From positions 1-46,065 of the forward strand of contig JAJKJM010000070.1 in NCBI GenBank assembly GCA_021153985.1: DNA of 46,065 nucleotides. Direction: 5' to 3'. This document shows, one piece after another, positions 31,792 to 45,457 of the stretch (position 1 is its first letter; the number at the start of each line of letters is the position of its first letter). Both the position numbers and the translations under genes were made by a program. Under the pieces are notes generated by a model that had not been told where the DNA came from, did no database searches, and saw only the letters and a program-made list of their open reading frames with translations. The DNA is from Polaromonas sp. (GTDB taxonomy: Bacteria; Pseudomonadota; Gammaproteobacteria; Burkholderiales; Burkholderiaceae_C).

Positions 31792-32682
31792 TCAGACGTT
31801 TCGGCCCGGCCAGCCCACAGCGATCACGCGCTTCTGTTCAAGCCGGTACTGCTCCAGAAATTTCGCTTCCCCGGTTTTCAGCCACTGGCGTTTCAACTCG
31901 TCCAGCAGGGAAGTTTCAAGGCGCAAAGTCTCAAAGGCGCGGCTTACGGGCATAAGCCGCAGCGGATAGCCGATGCTGGAAAATTTCCGCGAACGCGCCA
32001 GCAAATAAGACGCAACGCACTCCATGGCGAAAACTTTGGCCTGGACGATTTTGGTGCTGCCGTCTCCCTTGGTATAGGTGCATTCCGAGTTCAGGAAGTG
32101 CTGGCCGTCTTTGGTGTCTTCATGAAGCTGGTCGCAAATGCGCGACCACTCGCGCCAGAACGCCGGTTTGGCAAAGAAAAAATTGCTGAAGATGGCGTTG
32201 TCTGAGTGGTTCACCAACTGGCGCAAATCAAGCGCCGGGTCGAACTTGGCAAAAAAGCCCGCCACATGGTCAACAAAGCCATTGAAAAAGAAATCCATGT
32301 GCTCGAAAACATTCAGGAACGATGCACCATGACAGGGGAAGGGCGAAAACGAGTACACATCGGCATCTTCAGACGACTGGATAAAGCGGCTTACCTCCGC
32401 AGCCGACAGCCCGGTCTTTTCGTGGAACCGGGGAGAGACAAACCCATACAGGGCGGACTCGTCCAGCGGCATGGTGTGCAGGTAATTGCGTATAGGCCAA
32501 TACTCGAACCAGTCCGGCCGGTCGCTGTTGGCGTTTTCCATCGGCTCAAATCCCGGGTCTTTTTCTGCACGCGTAGCGCCGTCATAGACAATTTGATATC
32601 CCCTGACAAGCCGGGCATTTTTTGCGGAGGGCAGTGAGTCCGGTATTTCTTTTTTCTTGAAGAGTTTGGCGAATACGCTCAC
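31792..32682 (-). CDS. Conserved hypothetical protein, paralogue 1
   Basis: A 296-residue soluble protein starting from GTG, with AAGGAG upstream. No signal or membrane segment. Recognisable blocks: WFEYWPIRNYLH, LYGFVSPRFHEKTGLSAAEVSRFI, DADVYSFSPFPCHGASFLNVFEH, NAIFSNFFFAKPAFWREWSRICDQLH and a C-terminal LDELKRQWLKTGEAKFLEQYRLEQKRVI. A close paralogue lies at 34581-35471. The 'YGFxSPxFxEKTGL ... DVYxFxPF ... FSNFFxAKPxFW' pattern reminds me of uncharacterised domains linked to glycosyltransferases, but I cannot assign a function. The shared upstream segment suggests whole-gene duplication. Confidence 0.75.
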   Translation of the reverse strand: MSVFAKLFKKKEIPDSLPSAKNARLVRGYQIVYDGATRAEKDPGFEPMENANSDRPDWFEYWPIRNYLHTMPLDESALYGFVSPRFHEKTGLSAAEVSRFIQSSEDADVYSFSPFPCHGASFLNVFEHMDFFFNGFVDHVAGFFAKFDPALDLRQLVNHSDNAIFSNFFFAKPAFWREWSRICDQLHEDTKDGQHFLNSECTYTKGDGSTKIVQAKVFAMECVASYLLARSRKFSSIGYPLRLMPVSRAFETLRLETSLLDELKRQWLKTGEAKFLEQYRLEQKRVIAVGWPGRNV

Positions 32683-33325: not shown

Positions 33326-34429
33326 ATGGCCTTGCATTCGCTCGCTCATCTGAACTCTGAACAGACCGCTGGCTCATCAAGCCCGTTAAGCCCACCCGGC
33401 ATCAGCCGACGCACAGTGCTGGCCGCTGCACCCGCCCTGGGCGTGGCGGGTTTGGCAAGCGTGTCTGCCGCAGCCCTGCTCTTGCCACGCGCCGCACACG
33501 CCCAAACACCCGCCGGCATACGCCTGCAATCCTGGCCCATCAAGGCGCCGGCCTTCACCGGCATCCACGACATCGCCCCCGCACCCGACGGCGGCGTGTG
33601 GTTCTCCGCCCAACGCAGCGGCCATTTAGGCTGGCTGGACCCGACTACCGGCAAGACAGAGCTGGTTGCACTCGGCAAGGGCTCATCGCCCCACGGCGTC
33701 ATCGCCGGGCCAGACGGCGCAGCCTGGCTCACCGACGGCGGGCAAAACGCGATAGTCCGCGTCAGCTGGCCCGCAAGGCAAGTCAAGGTCTACCCGCTGC
33801 CCGCAGGCACGCCCTACGCCAACCTCAACACCTGCGCCTTCGACGGTGATGGAGATTTGTGGTTCACCGGCCAAAGCGGCTACGTCGGCAAAGTAGACGT
33901 GCGCACCGGCGCGGTCACCGTCAAAGAATCCCCCCGCGGCCGCGGCCCCTACGGCATCTGCACCACACCCAAAGGCGACATCTGGTGGTGCTCGCTCGCC
34001 GGCAATTTCATCGCCAACATAGACCGCAAAACAGGCAACTCCCACATCGTCGAGCCACCCACCCAACGCCAAGGCGCCCGCCGCGTCTGGTCAGACAGCA
34101 AAGGCCGCATCTGGGTGTCGGAATGGAACAGCGGAAATTTGTCAATGCACGACCCCGCCTTGGGCCAAGGCACCAATAGCTGGCGCACCTGGAAAGCCCC
34201 AGGCAACGAACCCCACGTCTACGCTGTCTACGTAGACAACAAAGGCATCGTCTGGGCCTCAGAGTGGAGCAACAACGCCATGCTGCGCTTTGACCCGGCG
34301 ACTGAGAAGTTTGATGTGATCCCGCTGCCGCGTGCTGCGGCCAGCGTGCGCCAGATCTTGGGCCGGCCTGGGGAGGTTTGGTTGCCGGAGAGTGGGACGG
34401 AGTTTGTGTCGGTGATTAGGGCGGGGTGA
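33326..34429 (+). CDS. Tat-exported virginiamycin-B-lyase-like beta-propeller protein
   Basis: A 367-residue protein with a twin-arginine signal (SRRTVLAAAPALGVAGLASVSAAALLLPRAAHA, about 28-60), then repeats of the Vgb/streptogramin lyase propeller type: DIAPAPDGGVWFSAQRSGHLGWLDP, SPHGVIAGPDGAAWLTDGGQNAIVRV, TCAFDGDGDLWFTGQSGYVG and VWSDSKGRIWVSEWNSGNLSMHDP. Vgb cleaves streptogramin B, but most relatives have unknown substrates, so resistance should not be assumed. AGGAGG lies 9 bases before the start. Tat export suggests it folds before reaching the periplasm. Confidence 0.82.
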   Translation: MALHSLAHLNSEQTAGSSSPLSPPGISRRTVLAAAPALGVAGLASVSAAALLLPRAAHAQTPAGIRLQSWPIKAPAFTGIHDIAPAPDGGVWFSAQRSGHLGWLDPTTGKTELVALGKGSSPHGVIAGPDGAAWLTDGGQNAIVRVSWPARQVKVYPLPAGTPYANLNTCAFDGDGDLWFTGQSGYVGKVDVRTGAVTVKESPRGRGPYGICTTPKGDIWWCSLAGNFIANIDRKTGNSHIVEPPTQRQGARRVWSDSKGRIWVSEWNSGNLSMHDPALGQGTNSWRTWKAPGNEPHVYAVYVDNKGIVWASEWSNNAMLRFDPATEKFDVIPLPRAAASVRQILGRPGEVWLPESGTEFVSVIRAG

Positions 34430-34580: not shown

Positions 34581-35471
34581 TTAGAGTTCCCGGCCCGGCC
34601 AGACCGTGGCGATGACACGCTTCTGCTCAAGGCGGTATTGCTCCAGAAATTTCGACTCGCCAGTCTGCAGGTATTGGCGTTTCAACTCGTCCAGCAAACC
34701 GATTTCAAAGCGCAACGGGGGAAAACCAGGCCCTACCGGCAGGAGATGGGGTGGGTAATTGATACTGGAAAATCGATTCGAACTCGCCAGTAAATAGGAG
34801 GCGACGCACTCCATCACAAAAACTTTTGCCTCAACAATTTTCCCATTGCCATCCTCTCTGACGTAAGGGCATTTCGAGTTCAAATAATGCTGACCATCCT
34901 TGGTGTCCTCATGAAGCTGGTCGCAAATTCGCAACCATTCACGCCAGAATTTTGGCTTGGCGAAGAAGAAATTACTGAAAATGGCGTTGCCCGAATGGTT
35001 CACCATTTGGCGCAAATCAACGGATGAGTCAAACTGGGACAAAAAATCGGCCGCATGACCCTGAATACCGCGGAAATAGAAGTCCTGGTTCTCGAAGACA
35101 TTCAAGAACGACGCGCCGTTGCAGGGAAAAGGAGAAAACGAGTACACATCGGCATCTTTGGATGACTGGATGAACCGGTCCACCTCGGCCGCCGACAGCC
35201 TGGTCTTCTCGAAAAACCCGGGCGAGACAAACCCGTACAGGGTGGACTCATCCAGCGGCGTGGTGTGTAAATAAGTACGGATCGGCCAATATTCAAACCA
35301 GCCAGGCTGTTCGCTATCGGCGTTTTCCAATGGTTCAAATCCCGGGTCTCTTTGCTCACGCGTGATCTGGTCATAGACGATTTGATGCCCACTTATACGC
35401 CGGAGAGTCGTTGCCAGTGGCGGTAGATCCGGTATTTTATTTTTTCGAAAAAGTTTGGTGAGTACGCTCAC
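34581..35471 (-). CDS. Conserved hypothetical protein, paralogue 2
   Basis: A 296-residue protein of exactly the same length as the one at 31792, clearly related over its whole length (for example LYGFVSPGFFEKTRLSAAEVDRFI and FSNFFFAKPKFWREWLRICDQLHEDTKDGQH). The start is GTG with AAGGTAC upstream. Changes are spread along the chain rather than clustered, and the frame is intact, so both copies are probably functional. It is convergent with the Vgb-like gene; the 151-bp gap between them shows no gene. Upstream lies an inverted repeat CAGCCCAG / CTGGGCTG (35493-35520). Confidence 0.75.
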   Translation of the reverse strand: MSVLTKLFRKNKIPDLPPLATTLRRISGHQIVYDQITREQRDPGFEPLENADSEQPGWFEYWPIRTYLHTTPLDESTLYGFVSPGFFEKTRLSAAEVDRFIQSSKDADVYSFSPFPCNGASFLNVFENQDFYFRGIQGHAADFLSQFDSSVDLRQMVNHSGNAIFSNFFFAKPKFWREWLRICDQLHEDTKDGQHYLNSKCPYVREDGNGKIVEAKVFVMECVASYLLASSNRFSSINYPPHLLPVGPGFPPLRFEIGLLDELKRQYLQTGESKFLEQYRLEQKRVIATVWPGREL

Positions 35472-35576: not shown

Positions 35577-36866
35577 TCAGCGCCCACCGCTACCGGCAGA
35601 TGCCTGGTTCACCGTCCCAGCCTGGCGCCGCCCTAACGCCCAGGCAAAGTAAACCCCCTCCACCGCCATAGCCACCCCACCCAGCGCCACCACCGCGCTG
35701 GTCCCAATGCGGTCAATCAAACTGGCCGCCAGCACCACCCCCAGCGACTGGCCCAAAAACAAAAACGACGAGAACAGCGACACCGCCGTACCCCGCGCAT
35801 GCGGTGTCATCTGCGTGGCGTTGGCCTGCATGGTGTTGTGAAAGGCAAAGAAGCCAAAGCCTGCCAACAAACTGGCGGGGATGGCGGGACCCCAGTGGGG
35901 TGTGTAGGCCAGCACCAGGGCGCACACGCCTACGATGGCGCCGCCCATGATGACCAGGCCTTGCTGGCCGAGGCGGCGGATCAAATGCGGGCCGACGGCC
36001 ATGTAGACCATGCCGCCCAGGCCGAAGAGGGCGACGATGGCGCCTGACACTGACAGCGACAAACCCAGTGAGCGATGCAGGTGCGACGCCCAGATGGCCA
36101 GCACGCCAAAGCCGACTGCGCCTTCGACCACCGCCATGAGCAGCACCACGCGCGACCATTTTCCGGTGATGATCTCTAGCGCTTGCGTCACGAAGTGGGC
36201 GCGTTGCACGGGCTGGCTGGGGGCGGCCATGCGCTCTTTGGTTTTTTCGTGCTCCGCGGCTGTCTGTCGGCGCCAGTCGCGCCACAGCAGCGCGCCCACT
36301 ATGGCAAACAGCACCGTCATAAAGGCAAAGGCCCAGCGCCAGCCCAGCAGATCGGTAAACAGGCCGCCCACCAGTTGCCCGCCCACGATGCCCAGCGTGC
36401 TGCCCAGGCCTGTGCGGGTGAGCATTTCTTGCAACTGGTCGGCGGGCACGTTGTCGCCCACCCAGGCCATGGCCAGCGGAATGAGTGCCGCGGCGCCCAG
36501 CGCCATCAGCAACCGGGCAAACACCAGCACGTCCAGGCTTTGCGCAAACACGGCCAGCACGCTGCCGACGCTGCAGCCCAGCGTGGCAAAGGTGACGACG
36601 CGGAACTTTCCCAGCCTGTCGCCCAGCGGGCCGTAAAAGAGCTGTGATGCGCCATAGGTGATGGCAAACACCGACACCACTTGCGCCGCCTGCGCCAGGC
36701 TGACGGCAAACACGCGTGACAGCTCGGGCAGCATCGCGTCGCAGATGCGCTGCGCGCACATGCTGGAAAAGGTGCCGAAAGAAAGAAGGAGGATGGAGCG
36801 GCGGGTGGCCGGGGAGATGCTGGAGTGGCCGGAGAGGGTGGCGCTAGGCGCGGCAGCAGAAGTCAT
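35577..36866 (-). CDS. MFS transporter, drug/metabolite efflux type
   Basis: A 429-residue inner-membrane protein with about 12 hydrophobic segments. The N-terminal half begins ISPATRRSILLLSFGTFSSMCAQRICDAMLPEL, with the loop 2-3 motif YGPLGDRLGKFRVV characteristic of the major facilitator superfamily. It resembles YnfM/Bcr-type exporters. The start ATG at 36866 is preferred; the open frame further upstream to 37040 is antisense to the VOC gene leader. Substrate unknown. Divergent from the VOC/acetyltransferase operon, which is consistent with shared control but not proof of it. Confidence 0.88.
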   Translation of the reverse strand: MTSAAAPSATLSGHSSISPATRRSILLLSFGTFSSMCAQRICDAMLPELSRVFAVSLAQAAQVVSVFAITYGASQLFYGPLGDRLGKFRVVTFATLGCSVGSVLAVFAQSLDVLVFARLLMALGAAALIPLAMAWVGDNVPADQLQEMLTRTGLGSTLGIVGGQLVGGLFTDLLGWRWAFAFMTVLFAIVGALLWRDWRRQTAAEHEKTKERMAAPSQPVQRAHFVTQALEIITGKWSRVVLLMAVVEGAVGFGVLAIWASHLHRSLGLSLSVSGAIVALFGLGGMVYMAVGPHLIRRLGQQGLVIMGGAIVGVCALVLAYTPHWGPAIPASLLAGFGFFAFHNTMQANATQMTPHARGTAVSLFSSFLFLGQSLGVVLAASLIDRIGTSAVVALGGVAMAVEGVYFAWALGRRQAGTVNQASAGSGGR

Positions 36867-37021: not shown

Positions 37022-37405
37022 ATGGCCAACACGCCCACAACTCCGACAGCGCCCACAGCGCCCGAGAACTGCCGAATCAACTACGTGGAACTGAACGTGC
37101 GCGACCTGGACAAAGCCAAGGCCTTTTACGGCCAGGCCTTTGGCTGGACGTTTACCGACTACGGCCCGCAGTACACCGAGTTTTCAGACGGTGCGATGAA
37201 AGGAGGCTTCACCACGCAGGCAGCGCCCTCGCCCACTGGCGGCCCGCTGGTGATTTTGTACGCCGACAAACTGGAGGCGGCGCGCGCCAGCGTGGTGGCC
37301 GCCGGCGGCGCCATCAAGCTGGAGATATTTGCCTTCCCCGGCGGGCGCCGCTTTCACTTTATTGACACCGACGGGTATGAACTGGCGGTGTGGTCAAAGG
37401 ACTGA
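37022..37405 (+). CDS. VOC (glyoxalase/bleomycin resistance) family protein
   Basis: A 127-residue VOC-fold protein: CRINYVELNVRDLDKAKAFYGQAFGWTFTDYG, FSDGAMKGGF, GPLVILYADKLEAARASVVAAGGAI and FPGGRRFHFIDTDGYELAVWSKD, where Glu in GYELAVW is the usual C-terminal metal ligand. Members include metal-dependent lyases, dioxygenases and drug-binding proteins; the specific role is unknown. Start ATG at 37022 with TTGGAG upstream. The acetyltransferase start is 2 bp after its stop, so the two form an operon. Confidence 0.85.
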   Translation: MANTPTTPTAPTAPENCRINYVELNVRDLDKAKAFYGQAFGWTFTDYGPQYTEFSDGAMKGGFTTQAAPSPTGGPLVILYADKLEAARASVVAAGGAIKLEIFAFPGGRRFHFIDTDGYELAVWSKD

Positions 37406-37407
37406 GC

Positions 37408-37959
37408 ATGGGTGACATCGACGAAATGAAAGTCATCAAGGAAGAAGACAGCCTGGCTGAACGCTTCAGCTTTCGGCCCCTGCAGATGGCTGACCTGCCG
37501 ATGCTGCATGAATGGCTGGCGCGGCCCCACTGGACGGAATGGTGGGGTCCGGCCCCGACCATGGCAGAGGTAGAAGCCGAATACGGTGGCTGGATCAAGA
37601 ATCCAACCCAGGTGCAACCGCACATTGCGCTACTGGACGGTCAGCCCTTCGGTTACATCCAGTCTTATGTGGCGATGGGTTCAGGCGGTGGCTGGTGGGA
37701 GGGTGAAACCGACCCCGGCGTGCGCGGCATCGACCAGTCCATCGCCGACGCGAGCCTGCTAAGCCGAGGCCTGGGCACGGCGATGGTGAAAGCCTGGGTC
37801 GCGAAGCTGTTCACCGACCCGCAAGTCACCCACATCCAGACCGACCCCGACCCGCGCAATGCCCGTGCGATCCGCTGCTATGAAAAGGCCGGGTTTCGCG
37901 CGGTGGGCGAAGTGCAGACGCCTGATGGGACGGCGTTGTTGATGGTTTGCAGGCGATAG
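37408..37959 (+). CDS. AAC(6')-Ib-like aminoglycoside 6'-N-acetyltransferase
   Basis: A 183-residue GNAT protein that by eye is close to AAC(6')-Ib over its length: LPMLHEWLARPHWTEWW, IALLDGQPFGYIQSYVA, GWWEGETDPGVRGIDQ, SRGLGTAMVKAWVAKLF, VTHIQTDPDPRNARAIR, CYEKAGFRAVGEVQTPDG. AAC(6')-Ib enzymes acetylate the 6'-amino group of aminoglycosides with acetyl-CoA. The Trp of GWW and Asp of TPDG, changed in the -cr variant, are the ordinary residues. The residue after GIDQ is Ser, where amikacin-type AAC(6')-Ib has Leu. Start ATG at 37408 follows AAAGGA. No integrase or attC site is nearby. Activity is inferred. Confidence 0.85.
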   Translation: MGDIDEMKVIKEEDSLAERFSFRPLQMADLPMLHEWLARPHWTEWWGPAPTMAEVEAEYGGWIKNPTQVQPHIALLDGQPFGYIQSYVAMGSGGGWWEGETDPGVRGIDQSIADASLLSRGLGTAMVKAWVAKLFTDPQVTHIQTDPDPRNARAIRCYEKAGFRAVGEVQTPDGTALLMVCRR

Positions 37960-38669: not shown

Positions 38670-39866
38670 TCACAGCGCCTTGCCCAAACGCCCCACACCC
38701 TCTTCAATCTTCGCCACATCCGCCGTCGCAAAACTCAGCCGCAGCGTGGCCAAATCCGGATTGGCCGCATAAAACGGCGCGCCGGGCACAAAGGCGACGA
38801 GCTGCTCAATCGCCTTTTTAGCGAAGTCGCCGGCGTCTTTGCTTTTGCCGTTGGCGCCGGTAAGGCTGGCCCAGAAGAACAAACCGCCTTGCGGCTGGGT
38901 GAAGGCAATCGCGTCGCCCAGTTCGCGCTTGAGGGCTGCCCCCATGGCCAGAGCGCGCTCGCCATACACCTTGCGTACATTTTTCAGCGTGTTGGGCATG
39001 CGGCCGGCTTTGAGGTATTGGGCGGCAGTGGCTTGGGCGAAGGTGCTGGTGTGTGCGTCGCTGAACTGCTTGCACATGGTGGCCTTGGCCAGCAGCTCGG
39101 CGGGGGCGACCATCCAGCCCACGCGCAGGCCGGGGCTCAGCACCTTGCTGAGTGAACCGCAGTGCGCCAGCAGCTCGCGGCTGCCGGGCACGGTGGCGCT
39201 CAGGGCCAGCAATGAGGGTGGCGGCGCTTCGCCGAAGTAGAGGTCGCCGTAGGGGTCGTCTTCAACAATCAAGGTGTTGTGTTTGACGGCCATCTCCAGC
39301 ACCTGCTTGCGGCGCTCCAGGCTCAGAAGTGCACCGCTGGGGTTGCCGAAGGTGGGGATCAGGTAGACAAATTTTGGCTTGTGCTGGGCGATGAGTTTTT
39401 CGAGCTCGTCGGTCTTGACACCGTTGGCATCAATCGGTGCGCTGATAAGTTCTGCGCCGTAGAGACGAAAGCACTGGATGGTGGCAAGGAAAGTCGGGCC
39501 TTCAACAATGACCTTATCGCCGGGCGAGATCATGGTCTTGCCGAGCAAGTCAAGCGCCTGCTGGCTGCCGGTGGTGACGATGAGTTGGTCGGGGGCGACG
39601 TCTTTGGCACCCTTGGTGGCCATGAAGGCGCTGAGCTGTTCGCGCAGCGGGCCGTAGCCTTCAGTGGCGCCGTATTGCAGTGCGCCGCCGGGCTCTTCAG
39701 TCAAGGCCTTGTTGCTGGCCTCTTTGATGCCTTCGACATCAAACATGGCCGGGTCTGGAAAGCCGCCGGCAAAGCTGACGATGCCGGGTTTTCCCAGCAG
39801 CTTGAAGAGTTCGCGAATCGCGGAGGTTTCGACATTGTTGAGGCGGTCGGCAAATTGCAGTGGCAT
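38670..39866 (-). CDS. PLP-dependent class I/II aminotransferase (LysN/2-aminoadipate transaminase type)
   Basis: A 398-residue fold-type I aminotransferase without a GntR domain. Key blocks: SFAGGFPDPAMFDVEGI, LQYGATEGYGPLREQLSAFM, LIVTTGSQQALDLLGK, PTFGNPSG (substrate carboxylate), TLIVEDDPYGDLYF (PLP-binding Asp) and the Schiff-base lysine in CGSLSKVLSPGLRVGW. It resembles enzymes annotated as 2-aminoadipate, kynurenine or branched-chain transaminases; the substrate is not evident. It is monocistronic and divergent from the multicopper oxidase gene by about 200 bp. Confidence 0.9.
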   Translation of the reverse strand: MPLQFADRLNNVETSAIRELFKLLGKPGIVSFAGGFPDPAMFDVEGIKEASNKALTEEPGGALQYGATEGYGPLREQLSAFMATKGAKDVAPDQLIVTTGSQQALDLLGKTMISPGDKVIVEGPTFLATIQCFRLYGAELISAPIDANGVKTDELEKLIAQHKPKFVYLIPTFGNPSGALLSLERRKQVLEMAVKHNTLIVEDDPYGDLYFGEAPPPSLLALSATVPGSRELLAHCGSLSKVLSPGLRVGWMVAPAELLAKATMCKQFSDAHTSTFAQATAAQYLKAGRMPNTLKNVRKVYGERALAMGAALKRELGDAIAFTQPQGGLFFWASLTGANGKSKDAGDFAKKAIEQLVAFVPGAPFYAANPDLATLRLSFATADVAKIEEGVGRLGKAL

Positions 39867-40067: not shown

Positions 40068-41951
40068 ATGATTGTCCAGCCCGTCGACTATTTCCTGATC
40101 GTTTGGTTTGCCCTGGCACTGGCTTGCACGGCCTATGTCGCCTGGGACCAGTTTCAGAACAACCCCGAGCCGGTGGTGATGAAGTGGGGCTTCATTCTTG
40201 TCACGCTGTACATGGGCCCGTTGGGCCTGCTGCTGTATGTCATGGCAGACAAAGAGCCCCACCCCGGCGGGCATGAAGCGTTCATCAAACCCTTATGGAA
40301 GCAGGGTGTCGGTTCCACCATCCATTGTGTGGCGGGCGATGCCACCGGCATCATTCTGGCGGCGGTGATCACAGCCGCTTTGGGTTTGCCCATGTGGGTC
40401 GACCTCATTGTTGAATACCTTGCGGGATTTGCGTTCGGCCTCTTTATCTTTCAGTCACTGTTCATGAAAAACATGATGGGCGGAACTTACCTGGAAAATG
40501 TCAGGAAGTCCTTCATGCCCGAGTTCATCAGCATGAACGCCATGATGGCCGGGATGGCGCCGGTCATGTCGCTGCTGATGATGGGACGTGACATGCGGGC
40601 GATGGACCCGACCGAACTGATTTTCTGGGGCGTGATGTCCCTGGGCGTTATCGCCGGGTTTGCTATTGCCTATCCCGTCAATGTCTGGATGGTCTCCAGA
40701 AAGATGAAGCACGGCCTGATGACCCAGCGCAAGGAGCGCCAGAGCGGCGAGAAGCATCAGGGCAAGGCGCCGTCCGGTCATGAAGGCCATCAGGGCGCTC
40801 AACATGGCGGAGGCGGCGCGGCGCCAGCGAGCCACCACGCCATGCAACCCGACGTCACACGGCCCCAGTTGATCGCGGTATGCATGACCACGTTGTTGAT
40901 GCTGTTGGGTGGCATGACGGCTCCCGCCCTCTACGTCAACATGAACCTGTCTGCGCGCGATGTCGGGGGCGCCATCATGCCGCCCGGGATGATCATGGGC
41001 TGGGACACCCCTGGTGAAGCAATGCGGGACATGGCGGCGGTTGACCCTCGCCGGGTGGCCAGCAAAGCAGAACCCGGCACAAGAGGGGACACGGTGCTCG
41101 AAGCGGGGCAGGAAGGCGGCGTCAAGGTGTTCAACCTGGAGGCTGGCGTAGTGCGCTGGAACATCCTGCCGGACTTGAAGGTCGAAGGCTACGCTTTCAA
41201 TGGCCAGGTGCCCGGGCCCCGGCTTCGCGTGACCGAGGGGGACAGGGTCCGTATCAGGGTGACAAACCGGCTTCCCGAGTCGACCACCGTGCACTGGCAT
41301 GGCCTGATTGTCCCGAACGAAATGGATGGCCCGGCCAAAATCACACAGGAGCCTATCCCCCCGGGCGGGCATTACACCTATGAATTCACGACCGGGCAGG
41401 CAGGCACTTTTTTTTATCACACCCACGATCACGCAGACCGGCAGCAGGCGCTGGGCCTGTACGGCGCGCTGATCATTGATCCCAAAGACCCATCCAGAGA
41501 GCTGGTGGCCGACAAGGAATACGTGATCCAGCTACAAGAGTGGCTCAAGCGTGAGGGCCTGACGTATCCCGCCATGCTGATGGAGGGCGCACTGCCCAAT
41601 TACTTCACCATCAATGGCAAGGCATATCCTGAAACCGAGACGGTCAGCATGCGGGTCGGTGAAACCATCAAGCTCCGCTTCATCGGAACGAACAACAATT
41701 TCGTCCACCCCATGCATGTACATGGCGGGCCATTCACCGTCGTCGCACGCGATGGCTATACGCTGGCGGAAGGCGCCCGCTTTGAAGCTGACACTGTCAA
41801 TGTCGGGCCGGGCCAACGCTACGACGTGATCTGGAAAGCCCGCAAACCCGGCAAATGGCTTGTGCATTGCCACATTCCGCACCATGCCACCAACAACAAT
41901 GTCGAGCACAAAGGGGGTGGCGGGTTGACCATGATTCTGGAGGTCAGCTGA
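40068..41951 (+). CDS. DUF4396 membrane domain fused to a two-domain multicopper oxidase
   Basis: A 627-residue fusion. Residues 1-215 hold about five membrane segments with a DUF4396-like core (STIHCVAGDATGIIL, FMKNMMGGTYLENVRKSFMPEF, MNAMMAGMAPVMSLLMMGRDM). A His-rich linker (229-257) and a further membrane segment (about 266-290) lead to two cupredoxin domains with all copper motifs: HWHG (409-412), HTHDH (451-455), HPMHVHG (547-553) and HCHIPHH (600-606). The only Cys ligand is in the second domain. It likely oxidises a phenolic or metal ion (copper or manganese) on the outer face of the membrane. The ATG at 40068 follows AGAGAGGA; the longer frame upstream is antisense to the aminotransferase. 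Confidence 0.85.
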   Translation: MIVQPVDYFLIVWFALALACTAYVAWDQFQNNPEPVVMKWGFILVTLYMGPLGLLLYVMADKEPHPGGHEAFIKPLWKQGVGSTIHCVAGDATGIILAAVITAALGLPMWVDLIVEYLAGFAFGLFIFQSLFMKNMMGGTYLENVRKSFMPEFISMNAMMAGMAPVMSLLMMGRDMRAMDPTELIFWGVMSLGVIAGFAIAYPVNVWMVSRKMKHGLMTQRKERQSGEKHQGKAPSGHEGHQGAQHGGGGAAPASHHAMQPDVTRPQLIAVCMTTLLMLLGGMTAPALYVNMNLSARDVGGAIMPPGMIMGWDTPGEAMRDMAAVDPRRVASKAEPGTRGDTVLEAGQEGGVKVFNLEAGVVRWNILPDLKVEGYAFNGQVPGPRLRVTEGDRVRIRVTNRLPESTTVHWHGLIVPNEMDGPAKITQEPIPPGGHYTYEFTTGQAGTFFYHTHDHADRQQALGLYGALIIDPKDPSRELVADKEYVIQLQEWLKREGLTYPAMLMEGALPNYFTINGKAYPETETVSMRVGETIKLRFIGTNNNFVHPMHVHGGPFTVVARDGYTLAEGARFEADTVNVGPGQRYDVIWKARKPGKWLVHCHIPHHATNNNVEHKGGGGLTMILEVS

Positions 41952-44098: not shown

Positions 44099-45457
44099 AT
44101 GGTGACCTTCCGCCGCCCCCGCACCAGCCCGGGGTCCAACATGCTGACGGTGTGGGCCAACGGGGAGCGCGTCGGCATCTGGTCCATCATCGACAGTGAG
44201 CATCGCTTCCAGTACGAGGCAAGCTGGCTGGAGTCTCCCTCTTCACGCCAGTTATCGCTTTCACTGCCTTTTATGCCCGGAAACCTGCCGCATCGCGGCG
44301 AGGTGGTGAACAACTTCTTTGACAACCTGCTGCCCGACAGCGACGCCATACGCCGGCGCCTGCGCGACAGGTTTGCCACCGGCGGCACAGCCGCATTCGA
44401 ATTACTGGCAGCTGTGGGACGCGACTGTGTAGGCGCGGTGCAGCTGATGCCGCCAGGGCTGGAGCCCAAGGGCTTTGACCGCATTGAGGCACAGCCGCTG
44501 GATGAAACAGGCGTCGAACAAGCCATTGATAACGCAGTCACGGCGGGACGGGTGCTGGGCCAGCAGCAGGAAGACGACTTTCGCATCTCGATTGCAGGCG
44601 CGCAGGAGAAGACCGCCCTGCTCTGGCATGAAGGCCAATGGTGCCGGCCACTGGGCGCGACACCCACTACGCACATCATCAAGCTGCCGCTGGGACTGGT
44701 AGGCAACGTGCGAGCCGACATGCATACCTCTGTCGAAAACGAATGGCTGTGCGCACAGATCCTGGGTTTGCTGGGGCTGCCGGTCGCGGCGTGCGACATC
44801 GCGACTTTCGGCCAGCGCAAGGTGTTGGTGGTGGAACGGTTTGATCGCGCTACTGAAAACCCGCCCGGCCGCCCGCCCTGGCTGGCACGGCTGCCGCAAG
44901 AAGATTTTTGCCAGGCGCTGGGCGTGGCGGGCCCCATGAAGTACGAATCGGACGGAGGGCCGGGCATACGGACCATCTTGCGCCAGCTTGACAGGAGCAG
45001 CCAGGCCGCCGCGGACAAGCTAGTGTTCGTCAAGACCGTGCTCGCTTTCTGGATCATGGCGGCCACTGACGGCCATGCCAAGAATTACTCGATCTTTCTC
45101 GAGCGCGGCGGCAGCTTTCGCATGACGCCGCTGTACGACGTGCTGTCGGCCTGGCCCATCATCGGCAATGGGCCCAACCAGATCAGCCCGCGCCGCGCCA
45201 AACTGGCCATGGCCTTGCGCGGCAAAAACGCGCACTACCACCTGCACGAAGTCCGCACCCGCCACTGGGAAGCGCTGGCAAGGCAAAGCGGCGTGCCGGG
45301 CGCCTTCGACCAGATGGTGGCGCTGGTGCTGCAGGTGCCTTACGCCCTGGAGCGTGTGGCCGACCAGCTGCCGCCGGACTTCCCTGAGCCGGTGTTTACC
45401 GCCATACGCCGCGGCATGCTGGCACAGGCTGAAAAGTTCGTAGCCGACCTGCCATGA
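44099..45457 (+). CDS. hipA: HipA-like Ser/Thr kinase toxin
   Basis: A 452-residue kinase of the HipA family. In E. coli HipA phosphorylates glutamyl-tRNA synthetase and promotes persistence. Visible elements: the N-terminal couple domain (LTVWANGERVGIWS, LPFMPGNLPHRGEVVNNFFDNLLPD), the autophosphorylation/P-loop motif with Ser164 (RISIAGAQEKTALL), THIIKLP, VERFDR, the catalytic loop DGHAKNYSIF (Asp324, Asn329) and the metal-binding Asp347 in TPLYDVLS. All catalytic residues look intact, so the toxin should be active. The stop overlaps the next gene start by 4 bp (ATGA). Confidence 0.93.
   Translation: MVTFRRPRTSPGSNMLTVWANGERVGIWSIIDSEHRFQYEASWLESPSSRQLSLSLPFMPGNLPHRGEVVNNFFDNLLPDSDAIRRRLRDRFATGGTAAFELLAAVGRDCVGAVQLMPPGLEPKGFDRIEAQPLDETGVEQAIDNAVTAGRVLGQQQEDDFRISIAGAQEKTALLWHEGQWCRPLGATPTTHIIKLPLGLVGNVRADMHTSVENEWLCAQILGLLGLPVAACDIATFGQRKVLVVERFDRATENPPGRPPWLARLPQEDFCQALGVAGPMKYESDGGPGIRTILRQLDRSSQAAADKLVFVKTVLAFWIMAATDGHAKNYSIFLERGGSFRMTPLYDVLSAWPIIGNGPNQISPRRAKLAMALRGKNAHYHLHEVRTRHWEALARQSGVPGAFDQMVALVLQVPYALERVADQLPPDFPEPVFTAIRRGMLAQAEKFVADLP

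Follow-up and report, generated by a model that had tools for sequence, protein, structure and literature searches.

The closest described relatives of the gene examined here are AAC(6')-Ib, or aacA4 (PDB 1v0c, 2bue and 2vqy; NCBIfam models NF033074 and TIGR04431), and the cassette-borne enzymes AAC(6')-IIa, AAC(6')-IIc, AAC(6')-31 and AacA38. AAC(6')-Ib is an antibiotic-resistance enzyme common in hospitals. The stretch of DNA analyzed, termed the window, comprises 46,065 nucleotides and is contig 70 of a 4.5-Mb Polaromonas genome (G000) that is 89% complete. It contains an open frame of 183 amino acids (37408..37959, + strand) whose product matches AAC(6')-Ib (PDB 1v0c) over residues 21-181 with an E value of 2.3e-59. 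The AAC(6')-Ib-like segments quoted by a first-pass annotation, which was made from the letters of the window alone, are indeed found in this match (GWWE.ETDPGVRGIDQ, IQTDP.P and RAIRCYEKAGF), and these common segments and the E value together exclude a chance likeness. Similar to AAC(6')-Ib, the window protein has the fold, most drug- and cofactor-site residues, the core length and the GIDQ-x segment, but it is 57-58% identical in the alignment (54-57% among the tblastn matches listed), scores below the family cut-offs, lies outside the clade of Ib and II cassettes and is encoded by a gene with no flagged attC site. In the predicted fold, the match to AAC(6')-Ib stands above those to other GNATs; BH2621 (2qml), Rv1347c (1yk3) and EryM-type enzymes share the GNAT fold but show 23-29% identity and lower Z scores (20-23). 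In the wide sense of an AAC(6')-Ib-like GNAT, defined by the 1v0c fold and the active-site residues, the window protein belongs to the family. As a whole, the locus is on balance best explained as a resident chromosomal acetyltransferase of AAC(6')-Ib fold, with an aminoglycoside or like amino sugar as substrate, on a side branch of the family.

For the phylogenetic placement, 117 sequences were compared and reduced at 96.5% identity to 74 rows, with L079 entered as 190 residues. The tree was built from 73 rows, one with internal stops being dropped, and 168 columns, with the column of residue 119 left out and AacA40 not among the cassettes. The 10 Polaromonas rows form one clade (100/99) inside a 25-row group (93/88) whose other rows come from Gemmatimonadota, an Acidobacterium and the window's own bacterial family. 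All of the clinical cassettes included fall in a 24-row clade (100/96), itself within a 42-row clade (99/94), and Polaromonas lies outside the 24-row clade; three long branches stand outside the main groups. A tree constrained to group Polaromonas with the 24-row clade is worse by 48 log units, with a p value of 0.024 in the approximately unbiased (AU) test that is lenient because the group was named after the tree had been seen. The AAC(6')-IIa, AAC(6')-IIc, AAC(6')-31 and AacA38 cassettes belong to the same family by sequence and share Ser at position 119 with the window protein, but they are 55-59% identical to it and are cassettes, with attC flagged on at least one side.

These placements bear on the proposal of the first-pass annotation that the window gene may stand near the non-mobile ancestor from which the clinical aac(6')-Ib cassette came. 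The gene is non-mobile, comes from the same bacterial family as several closer relatives of Ib and has Ser at position 119. However, its identity to Ib is far below that of a cassette at 87% and of a chromosomal gene without flagged attC at 82-84%, it sits in a separate clade, and it has no flagged attC; such an origin is extremely improbable. The window gene as source of Ib is refuted by identity, tree and AU test, and the phylogeny that had been suggested as a check places Polaromonas far from Ib/II.

Part of the genus appears to carry the gene as a resident of a single chromosomal site. With the window genome counted, full-length orthologues occur in 10 of 87 Polaromonas genomes, and the other nine are 80-87% identical; short-stretch matches only are found in four genomes and no match in 73. 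Polaromonas sp. JS666 is one strain that carries the acetyltransferase. Second, more distant relatives (27-28% identity) are present in three Polaromonas genomes. In the window, a VOC-superfamily gene (37022..37405, + strand; PF00903, 4.2e-12) lies immediately upstream, its stop (TGA, 37403-37405) separated by 2 nt from the start of the AAC gene (ATG, 37408). A possible ribosome-binding site, AAAGGA (37396..37401, + strand; read from the letters only), overlaps the end of the VOC gene. On the far side lies a divergent MFS transporter gene (35577..36866, - strand; PF07690, 1.8e-54), whose start was set at ATG 36866, the listed frame starting further up at TTG. A class I/II aminotransferase gene (38670..39866, - strand; PF00155) is the downstream neighbour that marks the chromosomal site. 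At loci L002, L004, L006 and L082, the last from a single-contig genome, the AAC gene likewise stands between the MFS and aminotransferase genes, without the VOC gene. The aminotransferase is on the same side and 95-98% identical in all four, and the adjoining MFS orthologue is 69-73% identical in L002 and L082 and 50-53% in L004 and L006. The VOC gene is found in 11 of the 87 genomes. Five genomes have both genes, in every case within about 600 bp, five have the acetyltransferase without the VOC gene, and six have the VOC gene alone. The two genes are therefore genuinely paired, though either can occur alone, and the acetyltransferase counts as accessory. Short remnants of it right beside the VOC gene in G014 (L091) and G021 (L092) point to repeated loss in Polaromonas. 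The divergence from an MFS exporter noted earlier thus holds; of the proposed VOC operon, the adjacent gene stands, and translational coupling of the AAC gene to it is probable.

Could this strain alone instead have acquired the gene recently, or carry it as a mobile resistance gene? Its patchy distribution would fit, but it has the same chromosomal neighbours across species, dS to the nine orthologues is 0.47-1.19, and there is no integrase, flagged attC or phage match, which leaves recent acquisition very unlikely. The attC test covered 39 loci and 438 background tiles and flagged at least one side of eight loci, all eight being cassette-type copies, and one background tile. The downstream attC was seen in only four of the eight cassette-type copies, so that negatives are moderate evidence. 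The 31 unflagged loci are the window, eight from Polaromonas and 22 other relatives; no attC-like site was flagged beside the window gene in this test of moderate sensitivity. No integron integrase was found at E<=1e-20 in the 89%-complete window genome, and no phage record matched the window gene. Among plasmid records, the best place exceeds 60% identity in only 13 of 4,269 matching (all 60-80%), one of which is among the matches listed and covers 15% of the query. Recent mobile acquisition was rejected on the plasmid, integrase, phage and attC searches. The earlier description of an environmental, chromosomal and non-mobile relative of AAC(6')-Ib, with no integrase or attC, agrees with these results. 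The gene is under purifying selection, with a median ratio of nonsynonymous to synonymous substitution rates (dN/dS) of 0.148 over 45 pairs of the 10 Polaromonas orthologues.

The product is predicted to be a GNAT N-acetyltransferase that shares the AAC(6')-Ib fold and retains most of the active site. With acetyl-CoA as donor, it would most likely acetylate the 6'-amino group of aminoglycosides or of a similar amino sugar of soil or water. Most of the compared residues at the AAC(6')-Ib drug and cofactor sites are kept. Several points weigh against an aminoglycoside-type enzyme on a resident side branch, beginning with three exceptions among these residues. The position of Y80 (codon 37621..37623, + strand, in the window) is His in 9 of 10 Polaromonas rows and Tyr in all 13 Ib/II-clade rows compared; that of L120 is Ile in all 10 Polaromonas rows; and that of D100, which we take to be a drug contact in AAC(6')-Ib, is Gly in 6 of 10 Polaromonas rows, including the window, and Asp in 9 of the 13 Ib/II-clade rows. 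The loop of residues 91-100 is predicted less surely (mean predicted local distance difference test score, pLDDT, 71). Every NCBIfam AAC(6') model matched scores under its cut-off: 206.3 bits against 400 for NF033074 (AAC(6')-Ib strict), 221.7 against 260 for TIGR04431 (AacA4 family) and 232.1 against 280 for NF012165 (AAC(6') set A). To these are added the ease with which the gene is lost (full length in 10 of 87 genomes, remnants in G014 and G021), the lenient AU p value and a tree bootstrap that is not fully settled. The Ib mutants Y80C and L120A are given phenotype S, read here as susceptible, in PMC3656343 (Table 2 for Y80C), so activity of the window protein, which differs at both positions, is not to be assumed.

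The same differences would also suit a housekeeping or detoxifying GNAT of AAC(6')-Ib fold whose main substrate is another, such as a polyamine, a cell-wall amino sugar or a VOC-linked metabolite, with weak or no activity on aminoglycosides. The sub-threshold scores, the replacements at Y80, L120 and D100, the tight VOC neighbour and the closest F119 relatives (in Gemmatimonadota, in Ramlibacter and elsewhere in the window's family), known here as sequences alone with no drug link, are in keeping with such an enzyme. Against it stand the retention of most compared drug- and cofactor-site residues and a predicted fold that matches AAC(6')-Ib above other GNATs, and we regard it as possible but rather doubtful.

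The residue directly after GIDQ in the window protein is Ser (codon TCC, 37738..37740, + strand), as had been read earlier, and it aligns with L119 of AAC(6')-Ib in the numbering of AF479774 (position 117 in W102 numbering). The change at position 119 is described as Leu to Ser in PMC3656343, and single substitutions alter the resistance phenotype within the Ib family (PMC11672645). The first-pass annotation had described the residue as the Ser variant at the amikacin/gentamicin position. Of the 74 rows, 40 have Ser at position 119, 30 have Phe and four have Leu, the Leu rows being three of Ib type (L033, L057 and L103) and one far outgroup. No other state is as common as Ser in the wider family, and the Ser is not readable here as the gentamicin-type switch of Ib. 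The AAC(6')-II phenotype is tied to Ser119 in an Ib background; the window protein has the Ser, but in a background that differs by about 42% and in a family where Ser is common. A three-state model fitted to the tree, which uses one column, is rooted on two Legionella rows and is only as good as the tree, assigns Phe to the ancestor that the Polaromonas and Ib lineages share, and Ser to the Polaromonas ancestor, the Ib/II clade and Ib itself. By this reconstruction, Ser119 in Polaromonas is probably an independent Phe-to-Ser change, and Leu119 of classical Ib looks derived. Taken with the 74-row states, the model also led us to reject the idea that Ser119 marks kinship with AAC(6')-Ib'.

Closer relatives of Ib are found elsewhere in the window's bacterial family, which spans Polaromonas, Acidovorax and Piscinibacter. 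Ib-like proteins (E<=1e-30) are present in 30 of 399 genomes of this family. An order-level draw gave 4 of 399 genomes (E<=1e-40) and a phylum-level draw 3 of 398 (E<=1e-30), two of the genomes in each draw belonging to the window's family. Four of the 30 family genomes carry copies at least 99% identical to Ib, which are evident acquisitions. One of these four, G310, also has an AAC(6')-IIa cassette with DNA 99.7% identical to a clinical one; a non-class-1 integron integrase (55% to IntI1) adjoins this cassette on the G310 chromosome (L141, 5560-8150). Among the relatives without flagged attC, that of Acidovorax kalamii is 82-84% identical to Ib and those of Xenophilus and two Hydrogenophaga are 73-76%. 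As in the window, the Acidovorax kalamii, Xenophilus, Hydrogenophaga and Variovorax genes have no flagged attC and come from the same bacterial group. Unlike the window protein, the five scanned chromosomal relatives from these taxa (68-82% to Ib) score above the TIGR04431 and NF012165 cut-offs, with 296.4 and 301.1 bits, respectively, for Hydrogenophaga palleronii; these genes fail the Ib cut-off of 400. An open reading frame start near the Acidovorax kalamii gene (L135) resembles cassette starts, with no attC flagged, and a decayed array may have stood there. In another member of the family (G368; L129, 1492-2792), an Ib-like gene (50%) is directly followed by an AadA-like gene (54% to AadA1), with no match at this locus to the integrase, resolvase or IS queries used.

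The closest relative of Ib found is in Piscinibacter gummiphilus (G426), at 87% amino acid identity and sister to Ib at 100/97. A 12-kb stretch of the second contig of G426 is 100% identical to a plasmid (200,976 bases) of Piscinibacter gummiphilus SBD 7-3 (soil, South Korea). On the 5.59-Mb contig of G426, an integron integrase gene (3905486-3906448) is succeeded by an array of a single attC type, with at least 118 sites as far as 4.005 Mb, the end of the stretch examined, and the aac gene sits within this array (loci L134 and L152-L156; chromosome 3.905-4.005 Mb). Compared from core site to core site, the 633-nt Piscinibacter cassette shares 82.6% identity with the 639-nt clinical Ib4 cassette. 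Their 300-nt flanks are only 53-54% identical, so homology does not reach beyond the cassettes. Downstream of the Piscinibacter gene, the attC is visible in the sequence yet was missed by the attC test because its core ends GTTAGAG. Of the array attC sites, the one at 3922017 matches the clinical Ib attC at 93.1% identity, with a median of 74.3% and a minimum of 66.7% over 118 sites; against the array, the IIa and catB3 attCs reach 57%, OXA-4 70% and DfrB10 81%. AAC(6')-31 (L032) carries an attC of the Piscinibacter type, which IIa, IIc and AacA38 lack.

Within Piscinibacter, 9 of 11 genomes contain a 15-base stretch of this attC type at least once, with 144 occurrences in G426 and 243 in G296. 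At least one match is found in 63 of 399 family genomes, Polaromonas G010 having four, so the type is not exclusive to Piscinibacter; only four of the 399 have at least 10 matches, two from Piscinibacter and two from one other genus (G182 and G282). In a phylum draw, 2 of 195 genomes contain the stretch, once each, and one of these is a strain with an acquired Ib copy. Among plasmid records, only that of Comamonas testosteroni (NZ_CP043574.1, 75899-75967) is matched by an attC of the Piscinibacter array (88.4%). This match lies under a dfrB (DfrB9) annotation, and the dfrB cassette may share the source lineage; PMC11662351, on dfrB origin in Burkholderiales, does not contain the words Piscinibacter, Rhizobacter, Rubrivivax or attC.

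An Ib-like cassette is present in only 1 of the 11 Piscinibacter genomes, three others having relatives of only 51-54%. Piscinibacter itself may have acquired the cassette, although the attC of that cassette is of the endemic type. An identity of 82.6% is too low to mark a recent donor, which puts the actual source in an unsampled relative or a sister array; the Piscinibacter finding names a source lineage, not the donor. We consider it likely that a sedentary Piscinibacter-type chromosomal integron (Sphaerotilaceae, Burkholderiales) is where the clinical aac(6')-Ib cassette, and probably that of AAC(6')-31, became mobile, non-cassette chromosomal AAC(6') genes of this group having turned into cassettes there with the endemic attC. 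The Leu119 (amikacin) form of Ib would have arisen later, from Ser119, and the Ser119 of Polaromonas independently, from a Phe119 ancestor. An attC-based origin study assigned a source taxon to 29 of 108 resistance cassettes, and aacA4 is absent from its Table 1 (PMC8352920). Neither aac(6')-Ib in Piscinibacter nor a Ser-to-Leu direction appears in any title or abstract start among the open-licence paper matches listed.

Elsewhere in the window, two paralogous 296-residue proteins, 71% identical, are encoded at 31792-32682 and 34581-35471 (both - strand), and neither matches Pfam at E<=1e-5. The gene at 33326-34429 (+ strand), a few kilobases from the acetyltransferase, encodes a protein with a virginiamycin B lyase-family domain. 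One open frame at 40152-41951 (+ strand) joins DUF4396 and multicopper-oxidase domains, and a HipA-like protein with N- and C-terminal domains, possibly part of a toxin-antitoxin system, is encoded at 44099-45457 (+ strand). No sigma-70 promoter was found near the AAC gene, where 0.6 are expected by chance, and the defence-system and Rfam scans gave no match.

The window gene adds a new chromosomal member to a family already known, one whose home is environmental and chromosomal, and it is not itself near the source of the clinical gene. It shows the wider family on the chromosomes of this bacterial group and the reach of the Ib-like core. The states at position 119 suggest that the gentamicin-type Ser form would be the older one, and the comparison with Piscinibacter gives a concrete source lineage for the clinical cassette that is open to testing.
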